From Hydnum rufescens UP504 (Eukaryota; Basidiomycota; Agaricomycetes; Cantharellales; Hydnaceae), in contig MU128972.1 of assembly GCA_014904985.1 (NCBI GenBank), forward strand, positions 156,462-220,461: a stretch of 64,000 bases of DNA, written 5' to 3'. How positions within the stretch are numbered: position 1 is the stretch's first letter; every line of letters begins with the position of its first letter. The translations under genes were made by a program, and so were the position numbers. This document shows, in pieces, positions 4,902 through 45,645 of the stretch. The notes beneath the pieces are model-generated. The model worked only from the letters and a program-made list of their open reading frames with translations. It was not told the DNA's origin and ran no database searches.

Positions 4902-5935
4902 GCAGGTGTGGGGTACTGGAGCCCTGTACTCTGGCTTGTACATATGGCCAGTTGTATGGGTCCTCCCCACAGTTTTCGTTTGTGGGGGGTTATTCGTGGG
5001 TTTCATTCATGGCATGTCATCCCATGGGTTTATGATCAGGGGTTTGCATGGGTTCTGGCCAGGATCTAGAGAAATAATAATAGGTTAGTAAAAAATGAAT
5101 GCAATGCAAAAAGAGCAGCATACACTGCTCTTTTGCACCACAAGAATAAGAAATAAGACCCCACACCTGCTGCAGTGGGTGTGGGGTACTGGGTCCATAC
5201 TCTGGCTCATGTATGGTGATTTGTGCAGGTCCCCCCAGGACCCCATCATTCAGGTGTCAATAGGTGGGGTCAGGAGGGGGGGGGGTTGCATCAGTATTCA
5301 TTCGCATGAGAAGTAAAGACCTATAATAGAAGGTTATAAATGAGTTAAGAATTAAACACCATGCAAAAAGAGCAGCTTTCACTGCTCTTTTTGTGTGGTT
5401 GTAGCTACAGGGGCAGTGACTCACCTTAAATAGGACCACACACCCACTGTGGTGGGTGTGTGGTTCCTGGGGCCCTCATATGCCATGGTCACGTCCTTGT
5501 TTGGTGCGTTACTGTACATTGCATCCTCATTTGGTGCATTGCCATGTATTGCATCGTATGGCGCATTGCCATGTGTTGCATTGTTGGCACAGTGCCATGT
5601 GTCACGTCATTGGCACAGTGCCATGTGTCACATCATTGGTGTGGTGCTGTATGTTGCATCATTGGTGTGGTGCCATAGGTCATGTGGTGGGCGCATTGCA
5701 TGTGTCATGTCATTTGGTGCATCTTTGTTCAGGGCATTGCCGTTTGGGCCCTCATTTCATGGGGTTTCATTGTGCCTTAGACCCCAGGCCTCAATCTAGA
5801 AGAATACAAGATATGTTAGTAAAAAGATTCAAAGAAGTGCAAAAAGAGCAGCTTTTGCTGCTCTTTTTGTGCCATTGTATCTACAAGCAAAAACTCACCT
5901 TGTGACCACACACCCGCAGTGGCGGGTGTGTGGTC
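4902..5935 (-). repeat. FB1 left arm: tandem exon/intron-like hairpin units
   Basis: Sense is minus. H2 hairpins (CAAAAAGAGCAGC stem) lie at about 5105-5137, 5362-5394 and 5838-5872. H1 hairpins (CCACACACC stem) lie at about 5157-5188, 5434-5465 and 5905-5934. Beside two of the H1 hairpins the minus strand carries an AAGGTGAG donor (near 5420 and 5893). On the far side of H2 it has CTAAC followed by a TAG acceptor (near 5063 and 5797). The spacer at 5500-5730 is itself a degenerate 24-30 bp repeat (TTGGTGCATTGCCATGTGT-like). Open frames here are by-products of the repeat and are not annotated as genes. Confidence 0.65.
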
Positions 5936-5937
5936 GC

Positions 5938-6690
5938 ATGCTTGCCCTTTCAGGCAGTTCCCTGTTGTTGTTGCAGAGATGAGAGGGAAGATGCAAAATT
6001 CAATGCCAGCAATTGCTGATACTCAAGAAGCGCCCAAGTGCTGGCACTACAAGGACAGCACACATCAATAGCAAGCATGGAGATATGGAATAGATACTAT
6101 ATAATAAAAATTTGTCCAATAAATGTGAAGAAGAAGAAGATAATGAGTCAGAGCTCAATAAGGCATAATATGGCTAATTGCAAAATGGATTGGGCCACTT
6201 CTATGCATCAGAATTAGCCCAAATTTAAATATAGTAATAGTATATATACACCCTAACATGGGCAATTAATTATCTCAGATGGTTCTCACATTTTCAAGTT
6301 TTCATGCCTTCAATTCCCTAAATAGGGAATTGAAGGCATGAAAACTTGAAAAATGTGAGAACCATCTGAGATAATTAATTGCCCATGTAGGGTGTATATA
6401 TACTATTACTATATTAAATTTGGGCTAATTCTGATGCATAGAAGTGGCCCAATCCATTTGCAATTAGCCATATTATGCCTTATTGAGCTCTGACTCATTA
6501 TCTTCTTCTTCTTCACATTTTATTGGACAAATTTTTATTATATAGTATCTATTCCATATCTCCATGCTTGCTATTGATGTGTGCTGTCCTTGTAGTGCCA
6601 GCACTTGGGCACTTCTTGAGTATCAGCAATTGCTGCATTGAATTTTGCAACTGCACAGCCACACCCAGCAACAGAGAGGCAACCACATGA
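5938..6690. repeat. FB1 central palindrome P1
   Basis: Two near-identical ~340-370 bp arms are separated by a 4-base spacer. The core is 6311-6332 (CAATTCCCT...AGGGAATTG) with its centre near 6321. Mirrored TATATA runs sit near 6240 and 6400. Each arm ends in a GCCAGCACTTGGGC / CAGCAATTGCTG motif just before the first H1 hairpin. The same centre recurs in P2, P3 and P4 with changed sequence but conserved layout. Confidence 0.8.
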
Positions 6691-7940
6691 CCACACACCT
6701 GCTGCTGCGGGTGTGTGGTCATAAGGTAAGTTTTGTCTTAGTAGAGACAATGGTGCAAAAAGAGTAGCACAAGCTACTCTTTTTGCGCCACTTTGAATTC
6801 TTATACTAATATAGCCTTTATTATTTTAGATTATGGTCTAAGGCCAGAGACAAAAACCTGCCACACAATGAAGGCCTGAACGGCAAGAGCCATACCCAAA
6901 CAAACGATGGACTGCCCAATGGGTAGCCACAGGAACCACACACCTGCCACAGCAGGTGTGTGGTGCTGTTTAACGTGAGTTACCCCCCCCCCCCAATAGA
7001 TATAGCTGTGCAAAAGGAGCAGTGATAGCTGCACAAAAGGAGCAGCAATAGCTGCTCCTTTTGCACTGCTTCGAATTTCTAACTAACTTTCATTTTAATA
7101 TTCTAGGTCACAATCTGGACCAATGTCCATACAAGCCCCAACCAAAACTGTATGCCAAATGAAATGAAGCCAAATGAAACAACACCAAACAAAAACATGA
7201 GTGGCCACACGAGCCACACACCCACTGTGGTGGGTGTGTGGCTCTATAAGGTAAGTGCACCCCCAACAGCACAAAAAGAGCAGCATCTGCTGCTCTTTTT
7301 GCACTACTTTAATTTTTTTAAACTAGCACATTGATTATTCTAGGTTATCACTCAACAACTAACAGAAAAATGAAGACCCACCAAATGAAGCCACCCCTCC
7401 CCAAAACTGACCACACACTGACCAAATGAAAACAACAAACCTGACCTGCCAAACCTCAAGTGCCAGACAAAACCCAAGAATGGGACCCATGATGTGAGGC
7501 CACAGATGGAACCACACACCCGCTTTGGTGGGTGTGTGGTAATTTTAAGGTAAGTACAACCACCCAAAAGGAGCAGCATACACTGCTCCTTTTGGGTGGC
7601 TTTTCTTCTTTTTCTTCTGTCTTTTACTAACATATTGTTTATTCCTAGCCTACAAACCCCACAAACCCATGAAACTATGCAGCCACGAACACAAAGTCGT
7701 GCCAGGAACACAAAGCTGCAGCTGCAAATGCAATGTGGAAACCCAAATGGCGCCCCACAACTGCACAAATGGGGCCTGCGTGAAGGGGGGACCAAAGGCC
7801 CACCATACCCCTGCAAATGTGCAGACCAGCAAATGATGGCCTGTGCAAGTGCATGACACCCAAACAGGCCAGACCACACACCCACTGCTCTTTTTGTGTC
7901 ACTTTTAACTTCTTACTAATCTAAAATTTTTATTCTAGAT
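6690..7940 (+). repeat. FB1 right arm: tandem exon/intron-like hairpin units
   Basis: Sense is plus. H1 hairpins are at about 6690-6720, 6934-6964, 7211-7244 and 7511-7540. H2 hairpins are at about 6752-6789, 7032-7066, 7269-7303 and 7561-7598. Intron-like segments with donor immediately after H1 and TAG acceptor after H2 are 6726-6829 (104 bp, TACTAAT branch site at 6804), 6975-7106 (132 bp, with a partial H2 duplicate), 7251-7343 (93 bp) and 7550-7648 (99 bp). The exon-like parts between them are C/A-rich with many ATGA runs and no long frame. The last unit (7873-7897) is a fusion of half an H1 with half an H2. Confidence 0.7.
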
Positions 7941-7995
7941 CTTGCTCCCCCCTAAACAAGTACATGCCTGAAAACTCCCCAGCCCCCCTGAGCCC

Positions 7996-8480
7996 TGTAC
8001 AAAAAACCAACACTGGCTGTAAGATTTTTCCACAAAGTTCATGTAAAAATTCATGCTAAGGCCATGAGCTTCATGGGATAGCATTATCCAGGAAGACCCA
8101 CAAGTATAGCAGTAAGTCACAAGAGGATCAGTCACAGGGGGGGGGATCAACCAGAGTGGGATCAAATAACACTGTGAGCAGAAGCACATGGTTATGTTGG
8201 TTGGGGGGTATTGGGTTAGGTCCCAGCAAGCCTGGGAATGCTCCTGAATGGGTCAGCAGGCTATACAGACTTATTGGCAATTGGGATTGTTTATTTATTA
8301 CTATTTGTTCTCATTATAACACATAATTATTCATTTATTGTTATTATACTATTATACATGTATCATACAGCTTATCCCCCCTCCCCTCTCCTGGTATTCA
8401 ACAGGGGTTGCATGTTTATATTTGGCAGGGTTGCAGGTTTTTATTTGGCAGGGTCACCAGATTAGTTGAGGGTAGGTGTG
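7996..8480. repeat. Outer tail and terminal block T1 of FB2
   Basis: Starts near AACACTGGCTGTAAG and runs through GGGGATCAACCAGAGTGGG (about 8139) to an A/T-rich part (8290-8360) and a CCCCTCCCCT tract. The block is repeated directly at 10830-11170 and inverted at 15900-16385. It marks the outer edges of FB2 and FB3. Confidence 0.7.
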
Positions 8481-8499
8481 GGCAGTGGGGTCAGAAGAA

Positions 8500-9760
8500 T
8501 ACCTAGAATAGTACATTAGTGAAAAAAGAAAAGCCACACAAAAGGAGCAGCCTGTGTTGCTCCTTTTGTGTGATCTTACATATACTTACTGTAAAAAATC
8601 ACCACACCTGTGGAAGTGGGTGTGGCTCATGTGGGTTCTCAGTGTTGTGTCATTTCATGTCTTCATTGGGTGGTGGTTTTCGTTATCTGTGTGGGTCTTG
8701 TTTGGCATGGGGTTTTGGGGGGTCATTGTTCATGGGTTTGGTGGTCTCTGTTTGGCCATTCATTCTCATTCGGCAGCTCTTCATTTTGTTGGCAGAGGCT
8801 CAGGCAATAACCTAAAACAATCAAGTGTTAGTTACATGTTAAAACTGGCGCAAAAAGAGCAGCCTTCACTGCTCTTTTTGCGCCACTGTACATATAGACA
8901 TTAAAAATAAATTCACCTTAAATTACCACACACCTGCTGCAGCGGGTGTGTGGTTGGTGTGGGTTCTTCATTTGGCAGGTTTCATCGGGTGGGTCTTCGT
9001 TTGGCTGGTGTCCATTTAGTGTTGGTTGTATTTTTCATTTGTTGTTGGGTTTTGGCTGGCTCATGTGGTGTTGGTTCAGATTCATGACTAGAATATTAAA
9101 ATATAGGTTAGTTACAAATTTGAAGCAGTGCAAAAGAGCAGCCTAAGCTGCTCCTTTTGCATGGCAGTATCTACTGGGGAAACTTACCTTTATAGTACCC
9201 ACACCCACCATAGCAGGTGTGTGGTTCTGGGGCCACTCGTTGGCTCTGTATCATTTCAAGGGTCAGGGTTTGTTTGGTGGGTGTCCACTTGGCGGGCATC
9301 TGTTTTCTTCGGTTGGGGTGGTTCTTCATTGTGTGTTGTGGGTTAGGTGATAACCTAGAAAAAATAATAACCTGTTAGTTAGAAATCAAAACCAGCACAA
9401 AAAGAGCAGCATATGCTGCTTTTTGTGCTGTTGGGTACACTGAGGGACATACTTACATAGAACCACACACCTGCTGCAGCAGGTGTGTGGTTCGTGTGGT
9501 CACTCATTGGTGGGTCCCCAGCTGCCATGGTCTCATTTGTTGTGTTTTGTCTAGCATATTGCCATTTGGGCCTGGTATTTTGCACCAGCCACAATCTAAA
9601 ATAATAATGTATGTGTAGTAAAGAATCACAAGCGGTGCAAAAAGAGCAGCTTTCTGCTGCTCTTTTTGTGTGATGTATTTACTACAATAAAAAAAACTCA
9701 CCTTGTTGACCAACACTGATTGGCAGGTGTGTGGTGCCTGTGCCTTTCTGCTGTTTCGGT
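8500..9760 (-). repeat. FB2 left arm: hairpin/intron-like units
   Basis: Minus sense. H2 hairpins at about 8534-8572, 8846-8885, 9129-9161, 9393-9430 and 9634-9673. H1 hairpins at about 8601-8626, 8924-8954, 9197-9225, 9460-9493 and a weak one at 9707-9740. Minus-strand donors (AAGGTGAA, AAGGTAAG, TGTAAGTA) and CTAAC/TAG acceptors bracket each H2. The outermost H1 is shortened to CCACACC...GGTGTGG. Confidence 0.65.
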
Positions 9761-9839
9761 GCTGGTTCGGTGGTTGTGGTTCAGTGGTTGCTTTAGTGGT
9801 TGCTTGGTCGTGTTGCTGGGTTAGTGGTTGCTGGTTCGG

Positions 9840-10500
9840 TGGGTTGTGAAGTAAGACACAGATAACCGGCAATTGCTGGACCAAAAAAGTGCCAAATGTG
9901 GCTACCAGCTATATACATTAATAGCAAGTCCTAGATGTGTAAGGATAAACAACATAATAAATATTTGTTCAGAAATATAAAAAAAGACCATGATAATAAG
10001 TCAGAGATCAATATGGCACCATATGCCTGTATTGCACAGTGGGTAGGCACTTCTATGGCTTAGAATTAGCCCAAATGTAAATATATGGTGGTGTATATTG
10101 ATCCTACATGGGAGACTAGTTATATCAGACAATCACTCCATTTTTGGATTTTTCACCTTCAATTCCTAAATTTAGGGATTGGACATGCGAAATCCAAAAA
10201 TGGAGGGGTCTGATATAACTAGTCTCCATTTCGGTTGCATATACACCACCAATATATTTACATTTGGGCTAATTCAAGCCATAGAAGTGGCCTACTTCCA
10301 CTGTGCATACAGGCATATGGTGCCCATGATCTTGACTTATTATCATGGGCTTTTTTTATATTTTTGAACAATTTATTTTGTAGTCCTTTTTACACTCTTA
10401 GGTACTTGCTATTAATGTATTGTCGCTGGTAGTGCGCATTTGGGCACTATTTTGGGTTCAGCAATTGCCCTGTGAGTCTGGTGTTTTCTTCACAATCCAC
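9840..10500. repeat. FB2 central palindrome P2, partly decayed
   Basis: Inverted arms of about 330 bp centred near 10170 share sequence with P3 but contain more small indels. One example is CACCTTCAATTCC against GGGATTGGACATGCG at the core. The outer part carries repeated GGTTG/CAACC runs (9750-9850 and 10540-10720). Confidence 0.7.
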
Positions 10501-10829
10501 GACCATGAAAGCCTGACGCAACCATGAAACCGCACCCCGACAGCACCCGAACGAGCAACCCACTGAACCAGAACCACTACCGAACCCACGAACCCAACCA
10601 GAACCACCACCAACCACAACCAGCACACCAACAGACACCAACCACCACAAACCGAACACAACGCAACCCCAACCAGACACACGCAACCACCAACAGCACC
10701 ACAAACCGACCGAAGCCTGAAGGCACCAGGACCCACACTGCCAATGGCAGGTGCATGTGGTCAACAAGGTGAGTTTTTTTATTTGTGAAATAACAGCACA
10801 AAAGGCAGCAGGAGCTGCTCTTTTTGCAA
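10500..10829 (+). repeat. FB2 right arm, one unit only
   Basis: A long C/A-rich exon-like part (10510-10735) is followed by a decayed H1 (about 10735-10765), an AAGGTGAG donor near 10768 and an H2 (about 10794-10829) that ends abruptly at the T1 block of FB3. Confidence 0.6.
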
Positions 10830-11169
10830 GGGGGATCAACCAGAGTGGGATCAAATAACACTGTGAGCAGAAGCACATGGTTATGTTGGTTGGGGGGTAT
10901 TGGGTTAGGTCCCAGCAAGCCTGGGAATGCTCCTGAATGGGTCAGCAGGCTATACAGACTTATTGGCAATTGGGATTGTTTATTTATTACTATTTGTTCT
11001 CATTATAACACATAATTATTCATTTATTGTTATTATACTATTATACATGTATCATACAGCTTATCCCCCCTCCCCTCTCCTGGTATTCAACAGGGGTTGC
11101 ATGTTTATATTTGGCAGGGTTGCAGGTTTTTATTGGCAGGGTCACAGATTAGTTGAGGGTAGGTGTGGG

Positions 11170-12470
11170 CAGTGGGGTCAGAAGATACCTAGAATAGTAC
11201 ATTAGTGAAAAAAAGAAAAGCCACACAAAAGGAGCAGCCTGTGTTGCTCCTTTTTGTGTGATCTTACATATACTTACTGTAAAAATCACCACACCTGTGG
11301 AAGTGGGTGTGGCTCATGTGGGTTCTCAGTGTTGTGTCATTTCATGTCTTCATTGGGTGGTGGTTTTCGTTATCTGTGTGGGTCTTGTTTGGCATGGGGT
11401 TTGGGGGGTCATTGTTCATGGGTTTGGTGGTCTCTGTTTGGCCATTCATTCTCATTCGCAGCTCTTCATTTTGTTGGCAGAGGCTCAGGCAATAACCTAA
11501 AACAATCAAGTGTTAGTTACATGTTAAAACTGGCGCAAAAAGAGCAGCCTTCACTGCTCTTTTTGCGCCACTGTACATATAGACATTAAAAATAAATTCA
11601 CCTTAAATTACCACACACCTGCTGCAGCGGGTGTGTGGTTGGTGTGGGTTCTTCATTTGGCAGGTTTCATCGGGTGGGTCTTCGTTTGGCTGGTGTCCAT
11701 TTATGTTGTTGGTTGTATTTTCATTTGTTGTTGGGGTTTTGGCTGGGCTCATGTGGTGTTGGTTCAGATTCATGACCTAGAATATTAAAATATAGGTTAG
11801 TTACAAATTTGAAGCAGTGCAAAAAGAGCAGCCTAAGCTGCTCCTTTTGCATGGCAGTATCTACTGGGGAAGACTTACCTTATATAGTACCACACACCCA
11901 CCATAGCAGGTGTGTGGTTCCTGGGGCCACTCGTTGGCTCTGTATCATTTCAAGGGTCCAGGGTTTGTTTGGTGGGTGTCCACTTGGCGGGCATCTGTTT
12001 TGTTCATTCTTGGTGGGTGGTTCTTCATTGTGTGTTGTGGGTTAGGTGATAACCTAGAAAAATAAATAACCTGTTAGTTAGAAATCAAAACCAGCACAAA
12101 AAGAGCAGCATATGCTGCTCTTTTTGTGCTGTTGGGTACACTGAGGGACATACCTTACATAGAACCACACACCTGCTGCAGCAGGTGTGTGGTTCGTGTG
12201 GTCACTCATTGGGTGGGTCCCTGGCTGCCATGGTCTCATTTGTTGTGTTTTTGTCTAGCATATTGCCATTTGGGCCTGGTATTTGCCACCAGCCACAATT
12301 AAAAATAATAGCATGAGTATGTTAGAAAGAAATTCAAAGCAGCACAAAAAGAGCAGTTCTGCTGGCTCTTTTGCACTGATGTATATACTATGATAAAAAA
12401 AAACTCACCTTGTTGACCACACACCCGCATCGGTGGTGTGTGGTGCCTGGTTGCCTTTCTAGGCTGTTGT
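11170..12470 (-). repeat. FB3 left arm: hairpin/intron-like units
   Basis: Minus sense. H2 hairpins at about 11221-11262, 11533-11572, 11817-11853, 12092-12133 and 12343-12377. H1 hairpins at about 11289-11315, 11610-11642, 11889-11920, 12163-12194 and 12416-12446. Unit for unit this matches the FB2 left arm. Confidence 0.7.
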
Positions 12471-12529
12471 TGGGTGCTGGTTTGGTGGTTGTGGTTCAGT
12501 GGGTTGTGAAGTAAAGACACAGACTCAAC

Positions 12530-13190
12530 ACCGGCAATTGCTGGAACCCAAAAAGTGCCCAAATGCTGGCACTACCAGCATCATATACATTAATAGCAAG
12601 TACCTAGATGTGTAAAAAGGACTACATAATAAATATTTGTTCAAAAATATAAAAAAAGACCATGATAATAAGTCAGAGATCAATATGGCACCATATGCCT
12701 GTATTGCACAGTGGAGTAGGCCACTTCTATGGCTTAGAATTAGCCCAAATGTAAATATATTGGTGGTGTATATGCATCCTACATGGGAGACTAGTTATAT
12801 CAGACAATCACTCCATTTTTGGATTTTTCGCATGTTCAATTCCCTAAATTTAGGGAATTGAATGTGCGAAAAATCCAAAAATGGAGTGATTGTCTGATAT
12901 AACTAGTCTCCCATGTAGGATGCATATACACCACCAATATATTTACATTTGGGCTAATTCTAAGCCATAGAAGTGGCCTACTCCACTGTGCAATACAGGC
13001 ATATGGTGCCATATTGATCTCTGACTTATTATCATGGTCTTTTTTATATTTTTGAACAAATATTTATTATGTAGTCCTTTTTACACATCTAGGTACTTGC
13101 TATTAATGTATATGATGCTGGTAGTGCCAGCATTTGGGCACTTTTTGGGTTCCAGCAATTGCCGGTGTTGAGTCTGTGTTTCTTACTTCG
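12530..13190. repeat. FB3 central palindrome P3
   Basis: Arms of about 330 bp with a perfect 24-bp spacer-free core at 12837-12860 (centre CTAAATTTAG). The arms are nearly identical over their length, so the structure is either young or maintained by gene conversion. Confidence 0.8.
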
Positions 13191-15900
13191 CAACCCACTG
13201 AACCAGCAACCACCAAACAGCACCCCAACAACAGCCTAGAAAGGCAACCAGGCAACCACACACCCCACCGATGCGGGTGTGTGGTCAACAAGGTGAGTTT
13301 TTTTTTATCATAGTAAATACATCAGCGCAAAAAGAGCAGCAGAAGCTGCTCTTTGTGCTGCTTTGAATTTCTTTACTAACATATCATTATTATTTTAGAT
13401 TGTGGCCTGGTGCAAAATACCAGGCCCAAATGGCAATATGCTAGACAAAAACACAACAAATGAGACCATGCAGCCAGGGACCCGCCCAATGAGTGACCAT
13501 GAACCACACACCTGCTGCAGTGGGTGTGTGGTTCTATGTAAGGTATGTCCCTCAGTGTACCCAACAGCACAAAAAGAGCAGCATATGCTGCTCTTTTTGT
13601 GCTGGTTTTGATTTCTAACTAACAGGTTATTTATTTTTCTAGGTTATCACCTAACCCACAACACACAATGAAGAACCGCCCAACAAGAATGAATGAAATG
13701 GATGCCTGCCAAGTGGACACCCACCAAATGAACCCCAGACCCTTGAAATGATACGGAGCCAATGAGTGGCCCCAGGAACCACACACCTGCTATGGTGGGT
13801 GTGTGGTACTATATAAGGTAAGTCTTCCCCAGTAGATACCACCATGCAAAAGGAGCAGCTTAGGCTGCTCTTTTTGCACTGCTTCAAATTTGTAACTAAC
13901 CTATATTTTAATATTCTAGGTCATGAATCTGAACCAACACCCACACAAGCCCAGCCAAAACCCCAACAACAAATGAGAATACAACCAACAATGTAAATGG
14001 ACACCAGCCAAACGAAGACCCACCCGATGAAACCTGCCAAATGAAGAACCCACACCAACCACACACCTGCTGTGGCAGGTGTGTGGTAATTTAAGGTGAA
14101 TTTATTTTTAATGTCTATATGTACAGTGGCGCAAAAAGAGCAGTGAAGGCTGCTCTTTTTGCACTGGTTTTAACATGTAACTAACACTTGATTTTTTTAG
14201 GTTATTGCCTGAGCCTCCACCAACAAAATGAAGAGCCACTGTTGGAGGGACAAATCCCTACTACATGCAAACCCTATCCGAGGACGATCTTTCAATTAAA
14301 TGAACCATTTCTCATGTCAATCTGGATGTCAATTCCCATGTCGTCATTCATTTGAGAACAAGCCCAGATGCCATATGTCTAGAATCCACAAATCCGCATC
14401 ATTCCCTTACCTATACATGAGCCAATTTATTGTTCATCTGCAGCACTTCAACAGGCCACCCCAAATTCCACTTTTTTTTGCCATACCTCAATGTGGCAAT
14501 AGCAATTCAACTTGCTTGCTTTGTTTGACCTTCAATCAGTCTCCACTTCTGATACACACTTCCTGTTGCCTCAAGGGTGACTCTAATGAATTGTGATTAT
14601 GTAATACAACAGATTACACACCCAGGCCTTGATTCTGACTTGCGGACTTGTCACATGACAAATAGGGGCTAATGCGGTGCTCTCAAGGAGTAAACATGGA
14701 ATATCTCCCTCAGTTTTGATCAGATTGACTCGGCAAGATAGCTCCCAGAAAGCTATGATTCACACCTTTTCGACAATACCAAACACGAGACGAAAGAATC
14801 AAAACTGCACCTTCCAGGTCGATTTTACTATGTGTTTCATATATCCCTTCAGTATTTTTCAATTTTCTCAGTCAGTTTTGATCCAATTCGTTCGGGAAAA
14901 GCACGCCTAGAAAGCTGTCGACAGTCCGCATCCAATGGTACCAAGGGCAAAACGAGCGGATTAAAACTCGGCTCTCTACAACTCAACTCCCCCATGTCTC
15001 ATTCCATTATTGCCTCCGCTTTTTTGATTATTAATGGCAATTATTCTCTGCCCCTCTTATATCCGATGAAGGGTACGTCTAGGACGACCAGTTCCACCAT
15101 TCCCCAAGGGATTCTGTTCAGTAGGAGAGGAGGAATAGCTTGGTTAAGCCATATTCCCCTATTCTGACTTGATTTTGGAATATCTCCTTCAGTTTTGAAG
15201 CTTTTGACTTTATTTCTTTTTCATCATTTTTTCCTTAACCCCACCTTTCTGCCGGTTACCATAGCATTTTTCTGTGATGTATATTAAGTGCAGGAGATGC
15301 GAATTTCTATAGTCTTCCCCTCCCCAGTTTTGAGGCACTGATGTATTGCCACTGGTTCCTTGGGTGAATTCCACTAAGACTACTACACTTTGTCTAGGGC
15401 CTCAAGAGGAGAGCCTTAGGGTGTGGTTTTGTGACCCATATTCATTCTTTGTTCTATTGCTTGAGCAGGTGTTGCTTACAGCTTTAGATTTCTATCCAAA
15501 AAGACCTTCCTTTCCTTCGAGCCTCAACATTTGGATTGATCCCATGGTCCCCTCTTTTCGTTCTTGATTCCATATCATGGACTGTGGCTGGATTCCCCCC
15601 TCCGTTTCCCGCTTACACTGCTGAATGAGAACAAATGGCCAAATGGAGACCACCAAACCCACAAACAATGACCCCCCCAAAACCCTGCACTGAATGAGAC
15701 CCACGCAGATAATGAAAACCACCACCCAATGAAGACATGAAATGACACAACACTGAGAACCCACATGAGCCACACCCACTTCTGCAGGTGTGGTGATTTT
15801 TTACAGTAAGTATATGTAAGATCACGCAAAAGGAGCAGCACAGGCTGCTCCTTTTGTGTGGCTTTTCTTTTTTTCACTAATGTACTATTCTAGGTATTCT
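13190..15900 (+). repeat. FB3 right arm: hairpin/intron-like units, split by LTR-A
   Basis: Plus sense. H1 hairpins at about 13256-13285, 13502-13533, 13778-13809, 14057-14088 and 15771-15795. H2 hairpins at about 13323-13363, 13565-13606, 13844-13882, 14128-14168 and 15825-15863. Intron-like segments are 13293-13398 (106 bp), 13543-13642 (100 bp), 13818-13919 (102 bp) and 14096-14200 (105 bp). Each has GTRAGT, GTATGT or GTGAAT at its start, CTAAC before the end and TAG at the end. The exon-like segments are 130-180 bp. The LTR interrupts the exon-like part after the fourth intron. Confidence 0.7.
14240..15617 (+). mobile_element. Solo LTR-A inserted in FB3
   Basis: A 1378-bp TG...CA sequence (TGTTGGAGGG...GCTTACA). 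The 4 bases on each side (CCAC and CTGC) are a diverged duplication. The undisturbed site can be seen in the FB3 left arm near 11458 and reads CTGC in the matching orientation. Internal, there are three or four related ~130-bp blocks, each containing CTCAGTTTTGATC. No coding region is present, so it is a solo LTR left by recombination. Confidence 0.8.
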
Positions 15901-16385
15901 TCTGACCCCACTGCCTGCACCTACCCTCAACTAATCTGGCAACCCTGCTGAATAAAAACCTGCAACCCTGCCAAATATAAACATGCAACCCCTGTTGAAT
16001 ACCAGGAGGGGGGAGGGGGGATAAGCTGTATGATACATGTATAATAGTATAATAATAATAAATGAATAATTATGTGTTATAATGAGAACAAATAGTAATA
16101 AATAAACAATCCCAATTGCCAATAAGTCTGTATAGCCTGCTGACCCATTCAGGAGCATTCCCAGGCTTGCTGGGACCTAACCTGATACCCCCCAACCAAC
16201 ATAACCATGTGCTTCTGCTCACAGTGTTATTTGATCCCACTCTGGTTGATCCCCCCCCCATGACTGATCCTCTTGTGACTTACTGCTATACTTGTGGGTC
16301 TTCCTGGATAATGCTATCCCATGAAGCTCATGGCCTTAGCATGAATTTTTACATGAACTTTGTGGAAAAATCTTATGGCCAGTGT
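15900..16385. repeat. Inverted T1 block and tail, right end of FB3
   Basis: Reverse complement of 7996-8480 and, for the inner part, of 10830-11170. The outermost bases (CTTATGGCCAGTGTT on plus) adjoin the Gypsy RT frame, which stops matching RT at this point. Confidence 0.7.
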
Positions 16386-17380
16386 TGTGCATGTGAAATG
16401 CTGTGAGCCATTTGTGGCCCTCAGTGACTCGGGTGTTGTAATAGCCACTGTGAAGGTCAATTTTTGTGTAAATTGTGGTGTGGTGAAGGCAATCGAGGAG
16501 TTCATTGATGAGGGGGAGGGGGTAGTGGCTCTTTTTCATGATTCAATTGAGTGCGTGGTAGTTGACACAAAGGCAAAGTCTGCCTCCTTTCTTCTTTGTG
16601 AATAGGATTGGTGTGCCTGTGGGGGATGTCAATGGGAAAATGAACCCTTTTGAGAGGAATTCATTGATGAATTCTCATAGCGCCACAAGTTTGGCCTCTG
16701 ACATGGGGTATATGGGTCCTCATGGTATGTTGCAACCCTCCTCAATGTCAAATCTGAGGTTGTATTTGCAATGTGGTGGTAGATAGCTAGCCACCGTGCT
16801 GGTGAAGACATTGTGGAATTCATGGTATTCTGCAGGGTGTTGTGTCTCCAGGACCTGTCATTCTTCCGTGGGGATCGAGTCAGGCAGTATGCAGTGGGGG
16901 GAGTTTCATGAACTACTGATGCGGCTTGTGTGTGAATGGGTTCAGCATCATGCATGCGAAGATTGTTGCATTGTCCTTGCTGGCTTTGTTGATGAAGTCT
17001 TCTGCATTGTAGACTTCTATCATGATGCTGGTAGTAGAGGGGGCTGGTGAGTTCCTTTTTGGCATTGATGTGGTTGCTGCAACAACGTTGATACTTAGGG
17101 GCATTGTAACGAGTTCCAGGTGATTTCCCATGTGCTCAATCCTCATGTTGGCCCAGGATATTTGGGGGTTCATTTGTCGCAACCAGGGGAGTCCAAGTAT
17201 GATGGGGGTGGAGGGATGGAGTTGCAACTTGACAAATTCAATGCATTGTTGTTGAGGCGTCTGGGAGCATTACAATGTGCTTGAGGTCATTCATGATCAA
17301 TCCATTGAATAAGTGTAAGGGACAAGGGGTTGTCAAGTGGTGATGATAAGGCATCACAAGTGAGCTCTGTACTCACATGG
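16386..17380 (-). mobile_element. Ty3/Gypsy protease-RT fragment
   Basis: On the minus strand, 16913-17227 carries the post-protease block PIILGLPWLRQMNPQISW. Further along come YHEDPYTP-like and YPLPLINELLD...IYTKIDLHSGYYN with TAFH, the first RT motifs (about 16400-16540). The RT frame is cut there by FB3. The protease-linker part is closely related to the gag-pro remnant at 32.9-35.2 kb, so both belong to one Gypsy family. Frames are broken and no integrase is present. Confidence 0.75.
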
Positions 17381-35213: not shown

Positions 35214-35242
35214 GGAAGTCAGTTATTTTAGATTGAAAATAC

Positions 35243-35697: not shown

Positions 35698-35702
35698 CCA
35701 AT

Positions 35703-36240: not shown

Positions 36241-36287
36241 ATTGGCAGGCCATCCTGTAAACTGGATACATCAAACATGATATCCTA

Positions 36288-37390
36288 CCAGGTAAATTCA
36301 TACATCAAGCTGGTATAATACCACATACCATTGTCATATATCCATACCACAGATGATATATCATAACTGAAGGTGGTAGTGATGCATCATGTATGGTAAC
36401 ATAATGTATTATATAATCAATATTATGTAAGCACCCATAAAAGGCAATACACCATAAGTAGCTCCTTACATAACTTATTTCTATATTTGGAAATATTACA
36501 TAATCACTTCCATATTTGGCAATATTACATAAGCATTTTTCCTTATTTGGAGTATTACATAATTACTTCCTTATTTGGACATATTACATAATTATTTCTA
36601 TATTAGGAAGTATTATGGAATATTTCCATATTTGGAAGTATTACATAAGCCTCCATATTTGGACAAATTACATAAGCTACTATATATGGCTATATTACTT
36701 AAGCTATATTACATAAGCAATATGCAGATGCATAGGCAATATGCATGGGGGGGGGATTGGGTGAAAGCCTTGAGCCTTATATGTTCCTCAGAATGTCTGT
36801 GTGCAGTTTGGTCCCAGTTGTGGGACGTTTGAGTATCACTCAATACTTAAACATCCCACAACTGGGACCAAACTGCACACAGACATTCTGAGGAACATAT
36901 AAGGCTCAAGGCTTTCACCCAATCCCCCCCCCATGCATATTGCCTATGCATCCGCATTTTGCTTATGTAATATAGCTTAAGTAATATAGCCAAATATAGT
37001 AGCTTATGTAATTTGTCCAAATATGGAGGCTTATGTAATACTTCCAAATATGGAAATATTCCATAATACCTCCTAATATAGAAATAATTATGTAATACTT
37101 CCCAATATAGAAATAATCATGTAATGTGTCCAAATAAGGAAAATGCTTATGTAATATTGCCACATATGGAAGTGATTATGTAATATTTCCAAATATAGAA
37201 ATAAGTTATGTAAGGAGCTACTTATGGTGTATTGCCTTTTATGGGTGCTTACATAATATTGATTATATAATACATTACATTACCATACATGATGCATCAC
37301 TACCACCTTCAGTTATGATATATCATCTGTGGTATGGATATATGACAATGGTATGTGGTATTATACCAGCTTGATGTATAAATTTACCTG
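36288..37390. repeat. 1.1-kb foldback palindrome P5
   Basis: Arms of about 545 bp are centred near 36838. The right end of FB4 shows the empty site (ACCAGGTAAACACCTTGG), so P5 was inserted into the left end of FB4. The arms contain a ~35-bp A/T-rich subrepeat (CCATATTTGGAAGTATTACA). The M1-type words TGATATATC and GGTGGTAGTGATGCATCA lie near both outer ends. Open frames inside are mirror images of each other and not genes. Confidence 0.8.
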
Positions 37391-37797
37391 CAGGCTGGTC
37401 AGTCATATGGGGGACCTAATTTAGGTACCACTTTCAGGGCAGAAAATGGTACCTAATAGGTCCCCCAGACCTTATGGCCGAAATCAGGCGATTTCAATTC
37501 AGTTTTTTGGCCATCTGTTGGCCAATCCATGGCTGTGCTAGATTATATGCTTATTTATTATTATTTGTTTATTTATTATTATTATTATTATTACTACTAT
37601 AATTATATACATATTATACTATATACCTATTATCCCCCCTGGGGTCTGCCACCACAGGGGGGCATGGTTTATGTGGATCATGGTCATGTGCCCGCATTTA
37701 CCCACAGTACCCTCCACAGCGAGTGCAGTCAGGGGCTGGTTCCTTTTGGGCACTCCCTTGAGAGGGTTGGTCTTCATTTGTGGGGCTTCATTCATGG
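37391..37797. repeat. Left terminal block T4 of FB4
   Basis: Contains two facing GGTACC-centred words (TTTAGGTACCAC and AATGGTACCTAA), TTGGCC repeats and an A/T tract (37540-37620). It is the inverse of 45250-45590. Confidence 0.65.
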
Positions 37798-39164
37798 TGT
37801 TGGAGGGATAAAACCCTACTATGTATATTCTGCTTCAGGACCCAACTACCTCCTCAAATGAATCCAAATTATTCAATTCCAATCCTTCAAATACCTACCA
37901 TTCCTTTGATTGCCATATGACATGGATTTCAATTCTCCAAGACCCATTTTATTTCTCTTTCCTCCACCTTGTACATGAGACATTTATTTGTCCATCTCCA
38001 AGTCTTCAACAGACTACCTCAAATTGTAGTTACTTCAAGCCCAGCCAACTGTGGCTCAGGCAATTCAACTTGCCCTGTTTGTTTGGTACCCAATCCATTG
38101 TGCATTGCTCATTGCCTCAGCGGGGATATACGAGTCCCAATTATATAATCAAGATTGCCTAATCCTTTGGATCCAACTCACGGATTAGTCACATGTTAAA
38201 TAGGGGCTATTCCCATACTCTCAAGGAGTATTTCACGAATATCTCCCTCATTTTTGATCGGATCGACTCGGCAAGATGGCACACAGAAAGCTACGATCAA
38301 TACCTATCCAACGGTACCACATATGTGTTTATCGGATGCGAACTGCACCCTCCAGGTCGATTTTACTTCATGCTCCACACTATCCTTCAGTATTTTGCGA
38401 ATATCTCCACCAGTTTTGATCTGATTCGTTAGTAACAACCACCCCTGGAAAGACGCTGAAAATCCGCATCGAATGGTACCAAGGGAAAAACGAGCGGATT
38501 AGAACTCGGCTTTCTGAAATTTAGTCTCCCCATGTCTCATTTCACTTTTACCTCTGCTTTTCTGATTATTAAAGGCAATTATGGTTCTGGAACCCTATGT
38601 CCGATGGAGGGTACGTCCAGGGAGACCAGTTCCACCTTTCCCCAAGGGATTCTGTTCAGTAGGAGAGGAGGGATACCTTGGTTAAGCCATATTCCCCCAT
38701 TCTGACTTGTTAATTGAATATCTCCTTCAGTTTTGAAGCCTTTGACTCAATCTCTTTTTCATCATTTTTGCCTTAACCCCACCTTTCTGCTGGTTACCAT
38801 GGCATTATTCCAAGATGTATATTAAGTGCAGGGGATGCGAATTTTGATTGATTTCCCCCTCACCCTCAGTCTCTAAAGTCTTGAAGGACAGCTGTTGGCA
38901 CCAGGGTGATTTCCAGACCATATCTAGTATTGTTCACACTTTGGATAGGCCCTCAAGAGGAGAGCCATCAGTGTGATTTCTGAATCAAATCATCCATTCA
39001 TTCATTGTTAGAGCAAGCCCGCCCTAGCAAGACAAATTCTCAACCTCAAGGCCTTTCATTCAATCGGACCTTAACCTACAGATTGACTCTGTGGCCCTCT
39101 CCTTTCATCCTTGATTCAACAATCTTGGACTGTGGCATAGTCTCTTAGGAGATTCCTGCTTACA
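37798..39164 (+). mobile_element. Solo LTR-A inserted in the FB4 left arm
   Basis: 1367 bp with a perfect 4-bp duplication, ATGG (37794-37797 and 39165-39168), and TG...CA ends. Confidence 0.88.
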
Positions 39165-39419
39165 ATGGTTATCATTCATGGCGTCTTGTTCGGTGGGTTT
39201 CTGCTTGGGGGCTCACGGGGGTTCTGGTTCAGGATCTACAGAAATAAATAATGAAATATTAGTACAACAGTAATGCAGCGCAAAAAGAGCAGCTTATGCT
39301 GCTCTTTTTGTGCCACAAGACTAAGAAATGAAATATAAAACATACCTTGTACCTTGCACCCACAGGTGTAGGGTACTGGGGCCGTGTACATTGGTGCGTA
39401 CATATGCCGGCTTGTACAC

Positions 39420-41105
39420 ACGGTGTGGAAGATAAAAACATCCAGTATCAGAAAATGCGAAATTACACAACTTCCAGTCATTGGACGATCACATGACCAA
39501 TTATGAGATTAATTATGGCTATGTGCAGCAACCAAATTCATTTTATAACTCCGTCAGTTTTGATCGGAGAGGTACGCCCATATAACGCTTAGAAAGCTAT
39601 GATTCACACCTTTTGAACAGTATGAAACACAAGTTGAACGGACCAAAACTGCACTCTCCAGGCCAATTTTATTATTAAAATCCAGGATTTCCAGTAAAAA
39701 ATGAATACCTCCATCAGTTTGCATTCAATCCTCTCGGAACAACCGCGTCTAGAAGGATATGAAAAATCCGCATCCAATGGTACTAAGCACACGAAGAACA
39801 GATCAAAATTGAACTCTACAGAATGATATTACTATCAGAATCAACACCCATCAGTAAAAAATGAATTTCTCTATCAGTTCACATCCGATCTGCTCAGAAC
39901 CACCGCACCCAGAAAGCTGTTAAAAATCCACATCTAATGGTACCAAGCACACCTATTATGGATGCAAACTGCTGTCTCTGCATCGAATCCCACACCATGC
40001 ACTTGTTCCTTTTATTAACCAGTAACAAAAAAACACCTTAACCACTGGACTATGCTCAGATTAATCTCCAAAACCTGGAGATGTCCCTTAATTTCGCTTC
40101 CCATGAGCCCCAAAACACATCACAAGATCAATGACATCATGCTCCAACTACTCCACAAGCTCAGCAAACTAGTGACATCATTTCCTTTATGAATCCTTTT
40201 GTTCTCTTTATGAATGACATCACTATGACATCACTATGACATCACACTCTATGAATGACTCAGCTATGACTGCATTATGACATCATTTCTTTATTACTCT
40301 TTTGTTCTACTCCACTATGACTCCCCCATGACATCACTATGATCTCATAGCTTTATTACTCTTTTGTTCTTGCTCCATGCACAGCCACCTTCAGATAGGT
40401 ATATAAGCTAGCAGATTTTCTTGTTCCCCTCCATCTCCTCACTCTGGAAATCAACCACTGTCAACTACTGTCTACCATTCTGCTTAATATCTAAAGAACT
40501 GTCTATCTAAAGCCATCTGGAGCTAAGTCATCTTCAAGGTTGTTGAGACCAAGCTACTGGAAGTCATCTACATGAAATACTGAAGCCAAGGATAGTTGCA
40601 GAACCTAAGGTTAGAGTTGCTGGACATCCAAGGAAAAGGTAAGCATAAAGAAATACAAGCCAGGAAAGAAGATTGAAGCATACTAACCAAACTAACCAAG
40701 CACTGACCATTCCATAACCCACAGATATCCGCATTTTGACTAGGAGGACGTAAACAAGGACACACAAATATCAGTAAATGGACAAACACAACACGAACAT
40801 GTATAAGCCTTTCCATAAGCATCCCAGACGTATAAGCCTTCCTATAAGCATCCTCCACATATAAGCCTTTCTATAAGCATTCCATATGATGTATAAGCCT
40901 TCCTATAAGCATCTACGATATATCATTGACTATTGCTAGTCCATATCACATTCCATTCTCCAATAAACACATACATATCTTGCAGAGAGTGATCAACCAT
41001 TGAAGTGAACCAACCCATTTGAATAAACAGAAACACAGTCTCCTATCTACACACTGGCTGAACCAGATTTTGATTTGACAGTCATCGGAGCTCCCAACCC
41101 TTCTT
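39420..41105 (+). mobile_element. 1.7-kb insertion in an FB4 unit, probable solo LTR of another family (LTR-C)
   Basis: It separates two parts of an array unit that are contiguous at 4.93 and 5.22 kb. It has no coding region and no M1 ends. The first half has three ~130-bp blocks with CATCAGTTTGCATTC / CGTCAGTTTTGATCGG words related to those of LTR-A. Then comes a promoter-like part with TATATAAG at 40400. At 40805-40912 there are four ~27-bp repeats (GTATAAGCCTTCCTATAAGC). Exact ends and target duplication are unresolved. Confidence 0.5.
40132..40407 (+). promoter_or_regulatory. Seven TGACATCA (CRE/ATF-like) sites upstream of a TATA box
   Basis: TGACATCA occurs near 40132, 40173, 40214, 40225, 40236, 40278 and 40329, with a TGACTCA-like site near 40257. 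TATATAAG follows at 40400, and a C/T-rich start-like region at 40425-40440. In fungi bZIP factors of the ATF/CREB type bind this word. The likely reading is the U3 promoter of the LTR-C sequence. Confidence 0.5.
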
Positions 41106-42049
41106 CTATAATGGCAGTTCATATGGCCCCCCCATCGTTCGGGCGTCAATAGGCGGGGTTAGGGGGTTCTTTGTCGGTATTCGTTCGTGAGGGGAGTTGA
41201 AACCTACAAAATATTATTTTTAAATTAGTTAAGAAATAAGGACCACGCAAAAAGAGCAGCTTTCACTGCTCTTTTTGTGTGGCTGTAGGTACTGGGGGGG
41301 GGGGTGGGAACTCACCTGGTATAGAACCACACACCTGCTGTTGCGGATGTGTGATTCCTGGGGCATTATTTGGCCTGGTTGCGCCCTCATTTGGCATGGT
41401 GCCATATGTTGCGTCATTGGTGCGTTGGCATTTGGTGCGTTGGCATGGCGTGTTGGTGTGTGTCGCGTTGGTGTATGTCGCGTTGGTGTATGTCGTGTTG
41501 CCATGTTGCATTGCCATGTTGCATTTCCATGCATCGCATTGCTGTTTGGGCTCTCATCATTGGACGAGGCCTCAATCTAAAATAAATAAAGAGATTAGTA
41601 AAATATTCCAAAGCAGCGCAAAAAGAGCAGCTTTCGCTGCTCTTTTTGCATGGCTGTAGCTACTGGGGGGGCGGGACTCACCTTATATAGGACCACACAC
41701 CCACCATGGCAGGTGTGTGGTTCGTGGGGCCCTCATTTGGTGCATTGCCATATGTTGCATCCTCATTTGGTGCATTGCCGTATGTCACGTTGTTTGGTGT
41801 GTTGCCATGTGTCATGTCATTTGGTGTGTTGCCATTTGGCGCATTGTCGTTTGCGCCCTTGTCACTTCATGGGTTTTCGCTGTGCTTTGGACCAGGCTTC
41901 AATCTAGAATAATAAAAGATGCATTAGTATAAAATTTCAAAGCAGCACAAAAAGAGCAGCTTTCGCTGCTCTTTTTGCACTGTTGTATCTACTAGAAAAA
42001 ATACTCACCTTGTGACCACACACCTGCAGCAGCGGGTGCGTGGTCATGT

Positions 42050-42900
42050 GGTTGCCTTTTCAGGCAGTTGCTTGTTGTGGTTGTGGAGATAGGAAGCAAG
42101 ATGCAGATTCAACACTGGCAATTGCTGATACTCAAGAAGTGCCCAAGTGCTGGCGCTGCAAGCACAGTACACAATAGTACCAAGCATGTATATTATAAAT
42201 AAATACTATATAATAAAAAATTGTCCAGGAAAACCCAAAGAAGAGGATGTAATGAGTCAGAGGTCAATAAGGCATGAGATTGCTAATTACAGAGTGGATT
42301 GGGCCACTTCTACGCATCAGAATTGGCCCAAATTTGAATATAGTAGTGTTATATATACACTCTACATGGGTGATTAATTATCTTGGATGATTTTCACATT
42401 TTCAATTTTTCATGCCTTCAATTCCCTATTTAGGGAATTGAAGGTGTGAAAAATTGAAAAATGTGAAAATCATCTGAGATAATTAATCACCCATGTAGAG
42501 CGTATATATAACACTACTATATTCAAATTTGGGCCAATTCTGATGTGTAGAAGTGGCCCAATCCACTCTGTAATTAGTGATCTCATGCCTTATTGACCTC
42601 TGACTCATTACCATCCTCTTCTTTGGGTTTTCCTGGACAATTTTTTATTATATAGTATTTATTTATAATATACATGCTTGGTACTATTGTGTACTGTGCT
42701 TGCAGCGCCAGTGCTTGGGCGCTTCTTGAGTATTGGCAATTGCTGGTGTTGAATTTCGAACTTTACGCAGCCACACCCAGCAAGCGACTGCACAACCATG
42801 ACACAACAGCAACAACAGCAGCAACAGCTGCTGCAGCTGCTGCAGCTGCTGCAACAGCAGCAGCAACAGTGCATGACTGTGACCGCATGACCACGACCAC
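42050..42900. repeat. FB4 central palindrome P4
   Basis: Inverted arms of about 340 bp with the core at 42419-42440 (CAATTCCCT...AGGGAATTG). It is closer to P1 than to P2 and P3. On the right arm a CAG/CTG tract (42804-42869) has expanded with no partner on the left. Confidence 0.8.
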
Positions 42901-45250
42901 ATGACCACACACCCGCTGATGCGGGTGTGTGGTTATAAGGTAAGTTTTGTCTCAGTAAATACAATACTGCAAAAGAGTAGTGCAAGCTACTCTTTTTGTG
43001 CTGCCATGAATTTTTATACTAACGTAGCCTCTATTCCTCCAGATCAAAACCAAAACAACAAATGACAGGCCACCCAATGAGTGAGCCCAGGAACCACACC
43101 CGCTGTGGCAGGTGTGGTTCTATTTAAGGTGAGTCTCCCCCCTAATAGATGCAGCCGTGCAAAAAGAGCAGCAAAAGCTGCTCTTTTTGCGTCGCTTTTA
43201 ATTTTGTAACTAATTATATTTTATTCTAGGTATTGCCATAAATGAAGACCCAAGCAGCAAGCCCGCCCACAAAGGAGACCCACAAATGAAGAGACAAACC
43301 ACACACCTGCTACTGCGGGTGTGTGGTTCTATCTATACAAGGCATGTAACACACCCCTGACGACACAAAAAGAGCAGTGAAAGCTGCTCTTTTTGCGGTG
43401 CTTTTAATTCTTTTTAACTAATGATTTTTTATTCTAGGTACAGTATTGTCACAAATGAAGACTGAAGACCCATGAAGCAAGCCCCCCACAACAATAACAC
43501 ACCCGCAGAGGGGACCCCCAAATGATGACATGCCACATGAAGAGATGAACCACACACCCACTTCAGCGGGTGTGTGGTAATTTTAAGGTGAGCATATAAC
43601 CACGCAAAAGGAGCAGCATGCACTGCTCCTTTTGCATGGCTTTTCTTTTTTCCTTTTTACTAACATATTATACATTATTTTAGGTTGTCTGAACCCACAA
43701 CCCCACCAAGCAAACACACGAGAACAGCAACAGACCTGCCAAACGAAACCCGCAAGAGTTCAAACCCCCAACATGACAACCAAGCCCCATACTGAGTATG
43801 AACTGCATGACTGCAGTACAAACCAAGGACCACACCCACCAAAGTGGGTGTGGTCCTACAAGGTTTTTATTTTTTTTATTTGATTTCTATATGTACAATG
43901 ACACAAAAGGAGCAGCGTAAGCTGCTCCCTTTGTGTCACTTTGAATTTTTTTTACTAATCAACATTCTCACTCTAGGATCTGAACCGAGACCCACAAACA
44001 AAACACCCACCCAAGTGATGACCAGCCCCCCATACAGAACCAAGTATGCGACCAGGGTGCAAAGGGAGTACCACACACCCACTTCGGCAGGGATGTGGTA
44101 CTAGTTCAGGTGAGTCCCCCCCCCTCAATAGATACTGTGGTGCAAAAAGAGCAGTGAAAGCTGCTCTTTTGCATCACTTTTAATTTTTTAATTAATAAAT
44201 CTTTACTCTAGGTATCACCACAAATACAAATGAAGACCCACAGTGCAACCCCCACCCCCCCCGAATGATAACATGCCCATGAACGATGATGCACCAAACG
44301 AAGACATGGGACGATGCCAAAACCGGTACGAACCACACACCCACCATCACAGGTGTGTGGTTCTATACAAGGTAAGTAATGCACCCCCAAGGGCACAAAA
44401 AGAGCAGCCTTGCTGCTCTTTTTGCATCCATTTTTATTTTTAACTAACAAATTCATTATTCTAGGTTCTAGGTTCTTGCCTGAACTACCACCAAACAAAA
44501 CCCCCCCCCCTTTGGAAATGACAATGCACCCACCAACGGAGAGTCCCAAATGCGACCAGCCAAACAAAACCCAGAAACAGGGACGCACAACGCAAGGTCC
44601 AGGGACCCTGGACGAACCACACACCTGCTTCAGCAGGTGTGTGGTAATTTCAAGATAAGTAGGATCGCGCAAGAGGAGCAGTGTATGCTGCTCCTTTTGC
44701 ATGGCTTTCTTTTTTTATTTTTTCTTTACTAACACATTATTTATTCCTAGATTTTCACCTGAGCCTACCACCTGCACTAACCCCCAAATCAAAGACCCGC
44801 AACCCTGCCAAAGACAGCCGTGAGAATGGACGCCCACAAACCCCCAAAATGATGCCCAGCCAGTACAAAACAGTACCACATACCCACTTCAGTGGGTGTG
44901 TGGTACTACAAAGGTTTTTTTTTCAAATTTCTATATGTGCAATGATGCAAAAGGAGCAGCACAAGCTGCTCCGTTTGCATCACTTCAATTTTTTTTTACT
45001 AACATACAGTATGATTCTAGGATCCAAATTGAAACCCCCGAAATGACAACCTACCCCAACAGTGAAGTGCCAAGCTGCACCCCCGACCACACCCACCCAA
45101 GTGGGTGTGGTACTACTACATAGTTTTTTGTTTTTAAGTTTCTACAGATGGTACCACACCCGCCTAAGCGGGTGTGGTGCCACTAGATAGTTTTTTTTAA
45201 ATTTTATTTTAAATTTCTACAGATGGTACCACACCTCAGTGAGTGTGGTG
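42900..45250 (+). repeat. FB4 right arm: longest series of hairpin/intron-like units
   Basis: Plus sense. H1 hairpins at about 42903-42933, 43092-43120, 43297-43329, 43549-43579, 43827-43856, 44072-44101, 44331-44362, 44616-44644, 44874-44905, 45084-45113, 45151-45181 and 45226-45251. H2 hairpins at about 42968-43001, 43157-43193, 43363-43400, 43601-43639, 43899-43938, 44141-44178, 44394-44427, 44666-44703 and 44943-44982. Clear intron-like segments include 42940-43042 (103 bp) and 43129-43229 (101 bp). The third unit has GCATGT in place of the GT donor. Outward, units lose the donor, then H2, and shrink to ~70 bp with only H1 and a TTTCTACAG acceptor. Confidence 0.7.
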
Positions 45251-45645
45251 ACTTTTTAAATAAATAAATAAATAAAAATAAACAACTCAGTAAGAATAAA
45301 ACAGAACTGCCAAATTAAACCCACTGACTGGGGGTAGCAGTGATAATAAATAAATAAATAATTATAAATGGAACATGTTATCCCCAATAAGTCCATATGG
45401 CCTGCTGCAAGTCTGAGATTCTCTAAGTCCCAGTTTTGGCCAATTTTTGGCCATTTCAGCCAATTCTGGGCCAGGAGGTGAAATTATAAAAATGGCCATT
45501 TTGGCCGAAATAGTGATGGGACCTACTTAGGTACCATTATCTGCCCAGAAGTGGTACCTAACTAGGTAGGCTTAGATGACTGACCAAGGTGTTTACCTGG
45601 TAGGATATCATGTTTGATGTATCCAGTTTCCAGGATGGCCTGTCC
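45250..45645. repeat. Right terminal block of FB4
   Basis: An AAATAAATAAAT tract, TTGGCC repeats, the two GGTACC words and the M1-type end (45595-45645). It is the inverse of the left end without P5. Confidence 0.65.

Follow-up and report, generated by a model that had tools for sequence, protein, structure and literature searches.

Hydnum rufescens transposons with a palindromic centre and two diverging arms of hairpin-bearing, intron-like units

A 64,000-nucleotide stretch of the genome of the basidiomycete Hydnum rufescens UP504 (contig MU128972.1, forward-strand positions 156,462 to 220,461, C64:156462-220461 in our numbering; hereafter the window) is rich in transposons, among them sequences with an exon for a KDZ transposase and an open reading frame (ORF) for a transposase of Tc1 type, and holds four elements of one plan, FB1 to FB4. 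A palindromic centre of ~0.65 kb, each half of which is promoter-like, is flanked by two diverging arms of tandem units, and the units carry two hairpins, H1 and H2, among words resembling the signals of a fungal intron. A preliminary description of the window had listed the four as a new kind of foldback element, possibly a non-autonomous class whose arms are transcribed and spliced outward or one that grows by adding intron-like units. We located all four, three with clean central palindromes and one with a decayed centre (Table 1), and compared them with the rest of the genome (63,185,524 bases in 539 contigs, the scope of all genome-wide counts below). FB1 to FB4 are likely to be decayed members of a large transposon family, a judgement that applies jointly to the whole explanation developed below.

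Intact copies of the family lie elsewhere in the genome. They are ~4.7 kb long with the termini CAGCCTGGTCAGCCA and CAACTCAGTCAGCCA, which form short, unequal terminal inverted repeats (TIRs), and the copies L043 (5,309 bp), L063 (4,700 bp), L064 (4,747 bp) and L065 (4,750 bp) all start with CAGCCTGGTCAGCCA and finish with TGGCTGACTGAGTTG. The target-site duplication (TSD) is 8 bp and is exact in 12 of the 15 copies examined, namely these four and eight of ten pairs of end fragments; the end pairs on C135 and C157 have no TSD, and in L089 (8,556 bp including a 5-kb stretch of N) seven of the eight bases match by eye. Genome-wide, 214 left and 196 right ends were found at ≤2 mismatches (reversed controls, 0), and among the 100 left and 100 right exact ends listed, 37 left ends have a right end no more than 25 kb away, the spacing being 3.4–5.95 kb in 30 of these pairs. 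The four intact copies are mutually 96.6–97.4% identical and differ mostly by transitions; this identity suggests recent activity, and the family has probably been active recently. With fixed TIRs, a TSD of fixed length and, in L063, the copy scored for this, no ORF beyond the shuffled range, it belongs to the TIR DNA transposons and is non-autonomous, as the preliminary description had suggested. The longest ATG ORFs in the spliced L063 arms are 113 and 84 amino acids, against shuffled means of 84 and 78 and maxima of 225 and 236. We rejected coding arms since these ORFs lie within the shuffled range and the intact copies differ by many frame-breaking 1-bp indels; the long stop-free stretches in the arms arise because the exons are poor in T. 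The same ends speak against the foldback label. Foldback elements terminate in their repeat arms and have a TSD of 9 bp, whereas here the arrays are internal, the termini are short, unequal and unique TIRs, and the TSD is 8 bp. One unusual arrangement of ends was seen by eye at L046:6246-6685 (C1:915245-915684), where the outer short arm of one element stands inverted between that element's left TIR and a neighbour's right TIR, flanked on either side by ATGAAAAC in opposing orientations; it resembles hybrid ends used in one transposition, with an assembly fault as the alternative.

The genome holds 361 palindromic centres at ≤3 mismatches, and the reversed control none. The halves of the centre are 71–99% identical in 27 elements and at least 91% identical in 24 of these. 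Inspection of the profile by eye shows blocks resembling CCAAT and TATA in each half, and we infer a promoter role from them; because the promoter-like half is present twice in the palindrome, two units would face outwards. In 44 of 51 arms the first recorded splice-donor word lies 400–510 bp from the centre; in the remaining seven the distance is 590–1254 bp. L063 has five H2 units in its left arm and seven in its right arm, the last two with weak donors, and the two arms show only patchy similarity to each other. The T content of its exon segments is 8–15% in 11 of 14, 19% in the first left exon and 23% in the two terminal segments, and AATAAA tracts, as read in this copy, precede both element ends.

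Within an arm, the module runs in a set order: a T-poor linker, H1 at the 3' edge of the exon, GTRAGT 6–10 nt further on, H2 in the middle of the intron-like segment, CTAAY and TAG. The core word of H2, AAAAGAGCAGC, occurs at 4,337 + 4,317 genome places (8,654 on both strands, a perfect hairpin being counted once per strand) compared to 14 + 18 (32) for the reversed control, and the first exon-intron junction at 784 places (reversed control, 3). The unit statistics were drawn from H2 places in the window and in fetched loci (n = 312). After 31 ambiguous places were dropped, 281 could be oriented, and merging identical contexts left 250 distinct units, 21 without H1 and 229 with H1 upstream, the latter serving for the H1 and donor statistics. 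Of the 229 units, 181 have a donor word (GTRAGY or GTATGT) no more than 30 nt after H1, against a mean of 6.8 and a maximum of 15 in shuffled sequences, 19 in reversed sequence and one in the reverse complement; a branch-like CTRAY comes after H2 in 218 of the 250 (shuffled mean 78, maximum 93; reversed 30). Both counts are biased upward, since the donor and acceptor words themselves set the orientation of the units and the ambiguous places had been dropped. With a wider word list, 183 of 201 donors start 6–10 nt past the 13-bp stem of H1. The intron-like segments have a median length of 105 nt (n = 198; 5–95% range 93–116, extremes 76–148) with H2 in mid-segment, in line with the fungal intron size noted before; the earlier range of 93–132 bp agrees with the introns of the FB1 right arm read base by base (Table 1). 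The median falls to 61 nt (196 introns) when H2 is subtracted, and in the basidiomycete Cryptococcus introns are reported to average 65 nt (PMC5851062, consulted in part).

As the orientation of units otherwise relied on the splice words, we excised the first unit of each arm by its distance from the centre only, and obtained an alignment free of this bias. The conservation set comprises 31 of the 54 first-unit segments, after removal of those >93% identical and of five that were non-homologous or too diverged (L024 left, L035 left, L050 right and both arms of L039, although donor and branch words are visible in both L039 arms). The mean pairwise difference among the 31 is 0.067 for the donor and 0.066 for the branch word, 0.135 for H1, 0.140 for H2, 0.237 for the acceptor, 0.274 for the other intron positions and 0.393 and 0.442 for the exon linkers. 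In non-CpG columns, the splice words, acceptor included, differ from the other intron positions at p = 0.005 and from the linkers at p = 0.00005. Among the conditions that the preliminary description named as refuting it were donor, branch and acceptor words no better conserved than neutral positions; the donor and the branch are clearly better conserved, and the acceptor does not stand out.

Taken together, these data make it likely, in our judgement from sequence comparison, that the element is a DNA transposon of non-autonomous type whose two arms are divergent non-coding transcription units with many introns. The hairpins fit this reading in two ways. Compensated double changes number 156 in H1 (159 distinct hairpins; shuffled mean 37, maximum 48) and 172 in H2 (171 distinct hairpins; shuffled mean 58, maximum 74), and GNRA and UNCG loops lie mostly on the strand that reads the splice words (counts below). 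RNA polymerase II would transcribe both arms outwards from the palindromic centre (RNA polymerase III transcripts seem unlikely because the 3' arm of H2 holds a T-run), and the introns of ~105 nt, or ~61 nt once H2 is folded away, would be spliced, giving non-coding RNAs with poly(A) tails and many H1 hairpins. The element would be moved via its ends by a transposase supplied from elsewhere. In active lineages, selection or mutational bias may have preserved donor, branch site and the pairing within H1 and H2, and linkers and arm length may have drifted. Of the earlier interpretation we retain a non-autonomous class whose ordered units, diverging from the centre, have the anatomy expected of outward transcription and splicing, and we give up the foldback label and the introner idea.

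Several observations weigh against spliced RNA as the explanation of the arms. The difference at the acceptor is barely below that of the other intron positions, which is 0.260 without CpG-type columns. The counts of compensated changes and of loops are not of independent events, as the sequences are related; shared ancestry inflates the covariation, and palindrome correction in DNA can mimic it. Mismatches in H1 stems are G-U in 103 cases and A-C in 91, and this near-equality implies no preference for the RNA strand in the resident copies; those in H2 (24 G-U, 11 A-C) were set aside as evidence because of CpG effects at the loop. Two spliced exon-exon junctions searched genome-wide gave no copies, compared to the 784 unspliced first junctions, a result that says no more than that spliced RNA of this kind was not copied back into the genome. 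Finally, only 32 of 182 introns have all the spacings of yeast zipper stems and 78 comply with the linker limit, the limits being those in the consulted part of PMC12350175.

Some of these points would be expected if the arms act as DNA, with H1 and H2 forming inverted arrays of binding sites for a transposase or an accessory protein and the splice words being by-products of an ancestral duplicated unit. Subterminal motif arrays are known in CACTA, hAT and Mu elements, both hairpins are palindromic in DNA, the arrays occupy nearly the whole element, quasipalindrome correction can yield compensated changes, and the balance of A-C and G-U mismatches in H1 would follow. We nevertheless consider this account unlikely. 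It does not predict a donor and branch at a difference of 0.07 against 0.27 for the other intron positions. GNRA loops are found in 89 of 220 H2 hairpins on the splice-word strand versus one on the other strand, and UNCG loops in 39 of 206 H1 hairpins versus nine. In addition, the H2/H1 arrays of L063 stop, by eye, ~200 bp (left) and ~400 bp (right) before the ends, where binding arrays usually sit. A possible though doubtful account, to which we give somewhat more weight, is that a host gene or long non-coding RNA was captured, its exon-intron unit expanded within the transposon by unequal exchange, and the array is now a Pack-type passenger. The variable number of tandem units and length of linkers, the freely drifting linkers and the lack of any unusual ORF in L063 agree with this, but a pure passenger should lose the donor, the branch and the hairpins that the diverged first units have kept. 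No host source turned up, although no search was aimed at one, and neither L063 nor the window has an Rfam match at the gathering threshold. The H2 hairpin pattern, for its part, had no match in viral_contigs and occurred in six bacterial contigs, where it resembles terminator hairpins by sequence type only.

The preliminary description had also raised the possibility of introners and proposed a search for single H1+H2 units at intron positions in genes. Every unit does hold a plausible complete intron, so that arrays could in principle be the source from which single H2 units spread as new introns of host genes. We regard this as very improbable, because TSDs bound the whole 4.7-kb element and not its units, and because lone hairpins are rare: the first 100 listed places (~1.08 Mb, exact words) contain 58 hairpins in 11 groups, with only two single ones. 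The one of these that was opened, C1:533133 (L045), proved to be what is left of two decayed units. This remnant (L045:2200-2700) lies some hundreds of bases upstream of a gene for an ADP-ribosylglycohydrolase and is possibly part of its 5' untranslated region; donor-, branch- and acceptor-like words are still legible in it by eye.

As to the partner that would supply the transposase, the 8-bp TSD fits both the hAT superfamily and KDZ/Zisupton, and TSDs of this length are given for Zisupton and the usual hAT elements in the consulted part of PMC12730594. KDZ transposase domains are numerous in the genome (at least 154 matches, with 150 of 584 first-look candidates scored), and the hAT dimerisation domain Dimer_Tnp_hAT has 90 matches (102 candidates, all scored). 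The partner search covered the ends with known places, 100 each of the 214 left and the 196 right ends. None of the 90 Dimer_Tnp_hAT places lies inside the 37 paired elements; one match, at C331:22653, is located 540 bp inward of a right end that has no partner. Longer pairs of ends, 7–9 kb apart, lie on C5, C17, C73 and C139. Among the 150 KDZ places listed, one (C56:79581) is inside a pair. There, at C56:67712-83547, a 15.8-kb pair of ends in the same orientation encloses a 4.5-kb element in the opposite orientation and the KDZ match at 79581-80381. We did not take this match for the autonomous partner, since with ~150 to 580 KDZ copies in 63 Mb one match within a pair is expected by chance, and regard it as a lead only.

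The general view is that a non-autonomous DNA transposon needs nothing but its ends, and an interior with conserved donor and branch words raises the question of what a transposon could gain from splicing. We tentatively propose, as an idea that is more probably wrong than right, that the transposon spreads through its RNA, with efficiently spliced, hairpin-studded non-coding RNAs and splicing itself adaptive. Splicing could help the transcript past RNA surveillance coupled to the spliceosome, as by SCANR, described in Cryptococcus, or could maintain transcription of the locus and its access for the transposase; alternatively, a silencing protein with affinity for H1 or H2 could be titrated. 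In Cryptococcus, inefficiently spliced transposon transcripts feed RNA interference (RNAi; PMC5851062, consulted in part), and by analogy well-spliced ones might escape it. If such RNA-driven spread is real, selfish DNA would include a class that carries introns in tandem array as its payload. A family of hundreds of copies that keeps its promoter-like centre, its donor and branch words and its covarying hairpins, with no apparent protein product, would be a testbed for whether splicing helps escape from silencing, and thousands of related structured introns are a natural set for studying intron hairpins in fungal splicing.

The family shares with non-autonomous hAT and KDZ/Zisupton elements the short TIRs, the 8-bp TSD and many near-identical copies without evident coding capacity, and differs in its length, its probable palindromic double promoter and the multi-intron arms inside. 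Drosophila FB elements likewise have large inverted arms of tandem repeats, but there the arms are the termini, whereas here they are internal, run outward from the centre and are followed by unique short TIR ends. The Tm1-HH/Cg-1 element of root-knot nematodes is a ~0.9-kb element of Mutator/Foldback type with composite TIRs of 13–15-bp tandem repeats, and the FB-like Tm1 has a 9-bp TSD; it resembles the present family in being non-autonomous, in having no obvious coding potential and in combining an exon/intron transcript with an RNA (histone) hairpin, but a palindromic centre or tandem intron units are not mentioned in the consulted part of the paper (PMC3169594). Introners, as treated in the consulted part of PMC9860276, are also non-autonomous DNA elements, some with TIRs and TSDs, that carry splice signals; one introner insertion makes one intron of a gene, whereas here one element holds many introns with exons of its own. 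A mid-intron stem that shortens the distance from donor to branch is shared with the yeast zipper stems (PMC12350175, in part), from which H2 differs in being one related hairpin repeated unit after unit. The family is a real and abundant one, and we found no description of such an element or of its interior in the literature searched, most subscription papers being outside the search.

The copies in the window are more worn than the intact ones. Other transposable elements interrupt or truncate FB1, FB3 and FB4 (borders by eye), and the FB elements extend past their last unit towards the terminal repeats, but the mapped TIR word has no match in the window at ≤1 mismatch. In the terminal region of FB4, the stretch 45313-45420 matches the right end of L043, an intact copy, at 86% identity; with this modest identity and the lost TIR, the window copies look older. 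By eye, TG or CA is frequent in them where the intact L043 and L063 have CG, the pattern expected if the element is CpG-methylated and decaying. FB2 is a partial duplicate, 90.6% identical over 8137-10826 to the inner part of FB3 (10830-13345), and the alignment has 37 gaps on the FB2 side (34 of them of 1–3 bases) and 13 on the FB3 side. FB2 may be a poorly corrected assembly duplicate beside a palindrome and not a true element.

Table 1. Parts of FB1 to FB4 and the sequences inserted in them (window coordinates; a dot marks features without a strand).
Feature	Position	Strand	Remarks
FB1 left arm, reads leftwards	4892..6006	-	units with H2 near 5121, 5379, 5855
FB1 left arm, outer end	near 4892	-	cut by another transposable element; boundary judged by eye
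FB1 central palindrome, probable double promoter	6007..6635	.	outer 117-bp arms 99% complementary; centre 6321
FB1 right arm	6636..7945	+	four whole units and a fifth fused via an H1-H2 deletion (by eye)
FB1 right arm, intron-like segment 1	6726..6829	+	GTAAGT...TTTTAG, 104 bp, H2 6756-6785
FB1 right arm, intron-like segment 2	6975..7106	+	GTGAGT...TTCTAG, 132 bp, left arm of H2 duplicated (23-bp unit)
FB1 right arm, intron-like segment 3	7251..7343	+	GTAAGT...TTCTAG, 93 bp
FB1 right arm, intron-like segment 4	7550..7648	+	GTAAGT...TCCTAG, 99 bp
Inverted end, outer flank of FB2/FB3	8008..8144	+	137 bp, 97%; partner 16251-16387 (-)
FB2	8137..10826	.	left arm, decayed centre near 10170, beginning of right arm
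FB3 left arm, reads leftwards	10830..12516	-	
FB3 central palindrome	12517..13179	.	halves 99.4% identical; centre 12848
FB3 right arm, inner four units	13180..14240	+	inner left arm is a 95-96% inverted copy
Unrelated transposable element within FB3 right arm	14241..15617	.	borders by eye
FB3 right arm, outer unit and terminal region	15618..16387	+	
FB4 left arm, outermost unit	39166..39422	-	
Unrelated transposable element within FB4 left arm	39423..41112	.	pieces 74-86% identical in L039, L040, L044; borders by eye
FB4 left arm, inner three units	41113..42097	-	
FB4 central palindrome	42098..42763	.	halves 95% identical; centre 42430
FB4 right arm	42764..45257	+	nine H2 units, then repeats with H1 only
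FB4 right terminal region	45258..45436	+	AATAAA tracts; outer TIR lost; another repeat follows

Relatives of the transposable element inserted in FB3 lie in the window at 4313-4901, 38576-38864, 49382-49670, 55013-55349 and 60220-60505. A separate palindrome of 1.1 kb at 36289-37390, with 548-bp arms (95%) and tandem repeats of ~29 bp, is closer to the foldback type than FB1 to FB4 are. The window also contains an inverted pair of 1.37-kb repeats (37798-39165 and 49081-50447; 98–99% identity, ~10 kb spacing), further pieces of which family lie at 54725-55296 and 59915-60486, and an ORF of 284 amino acids at 48105-48959 (+) with a collagen-like Gly-Pro-rich stretch.

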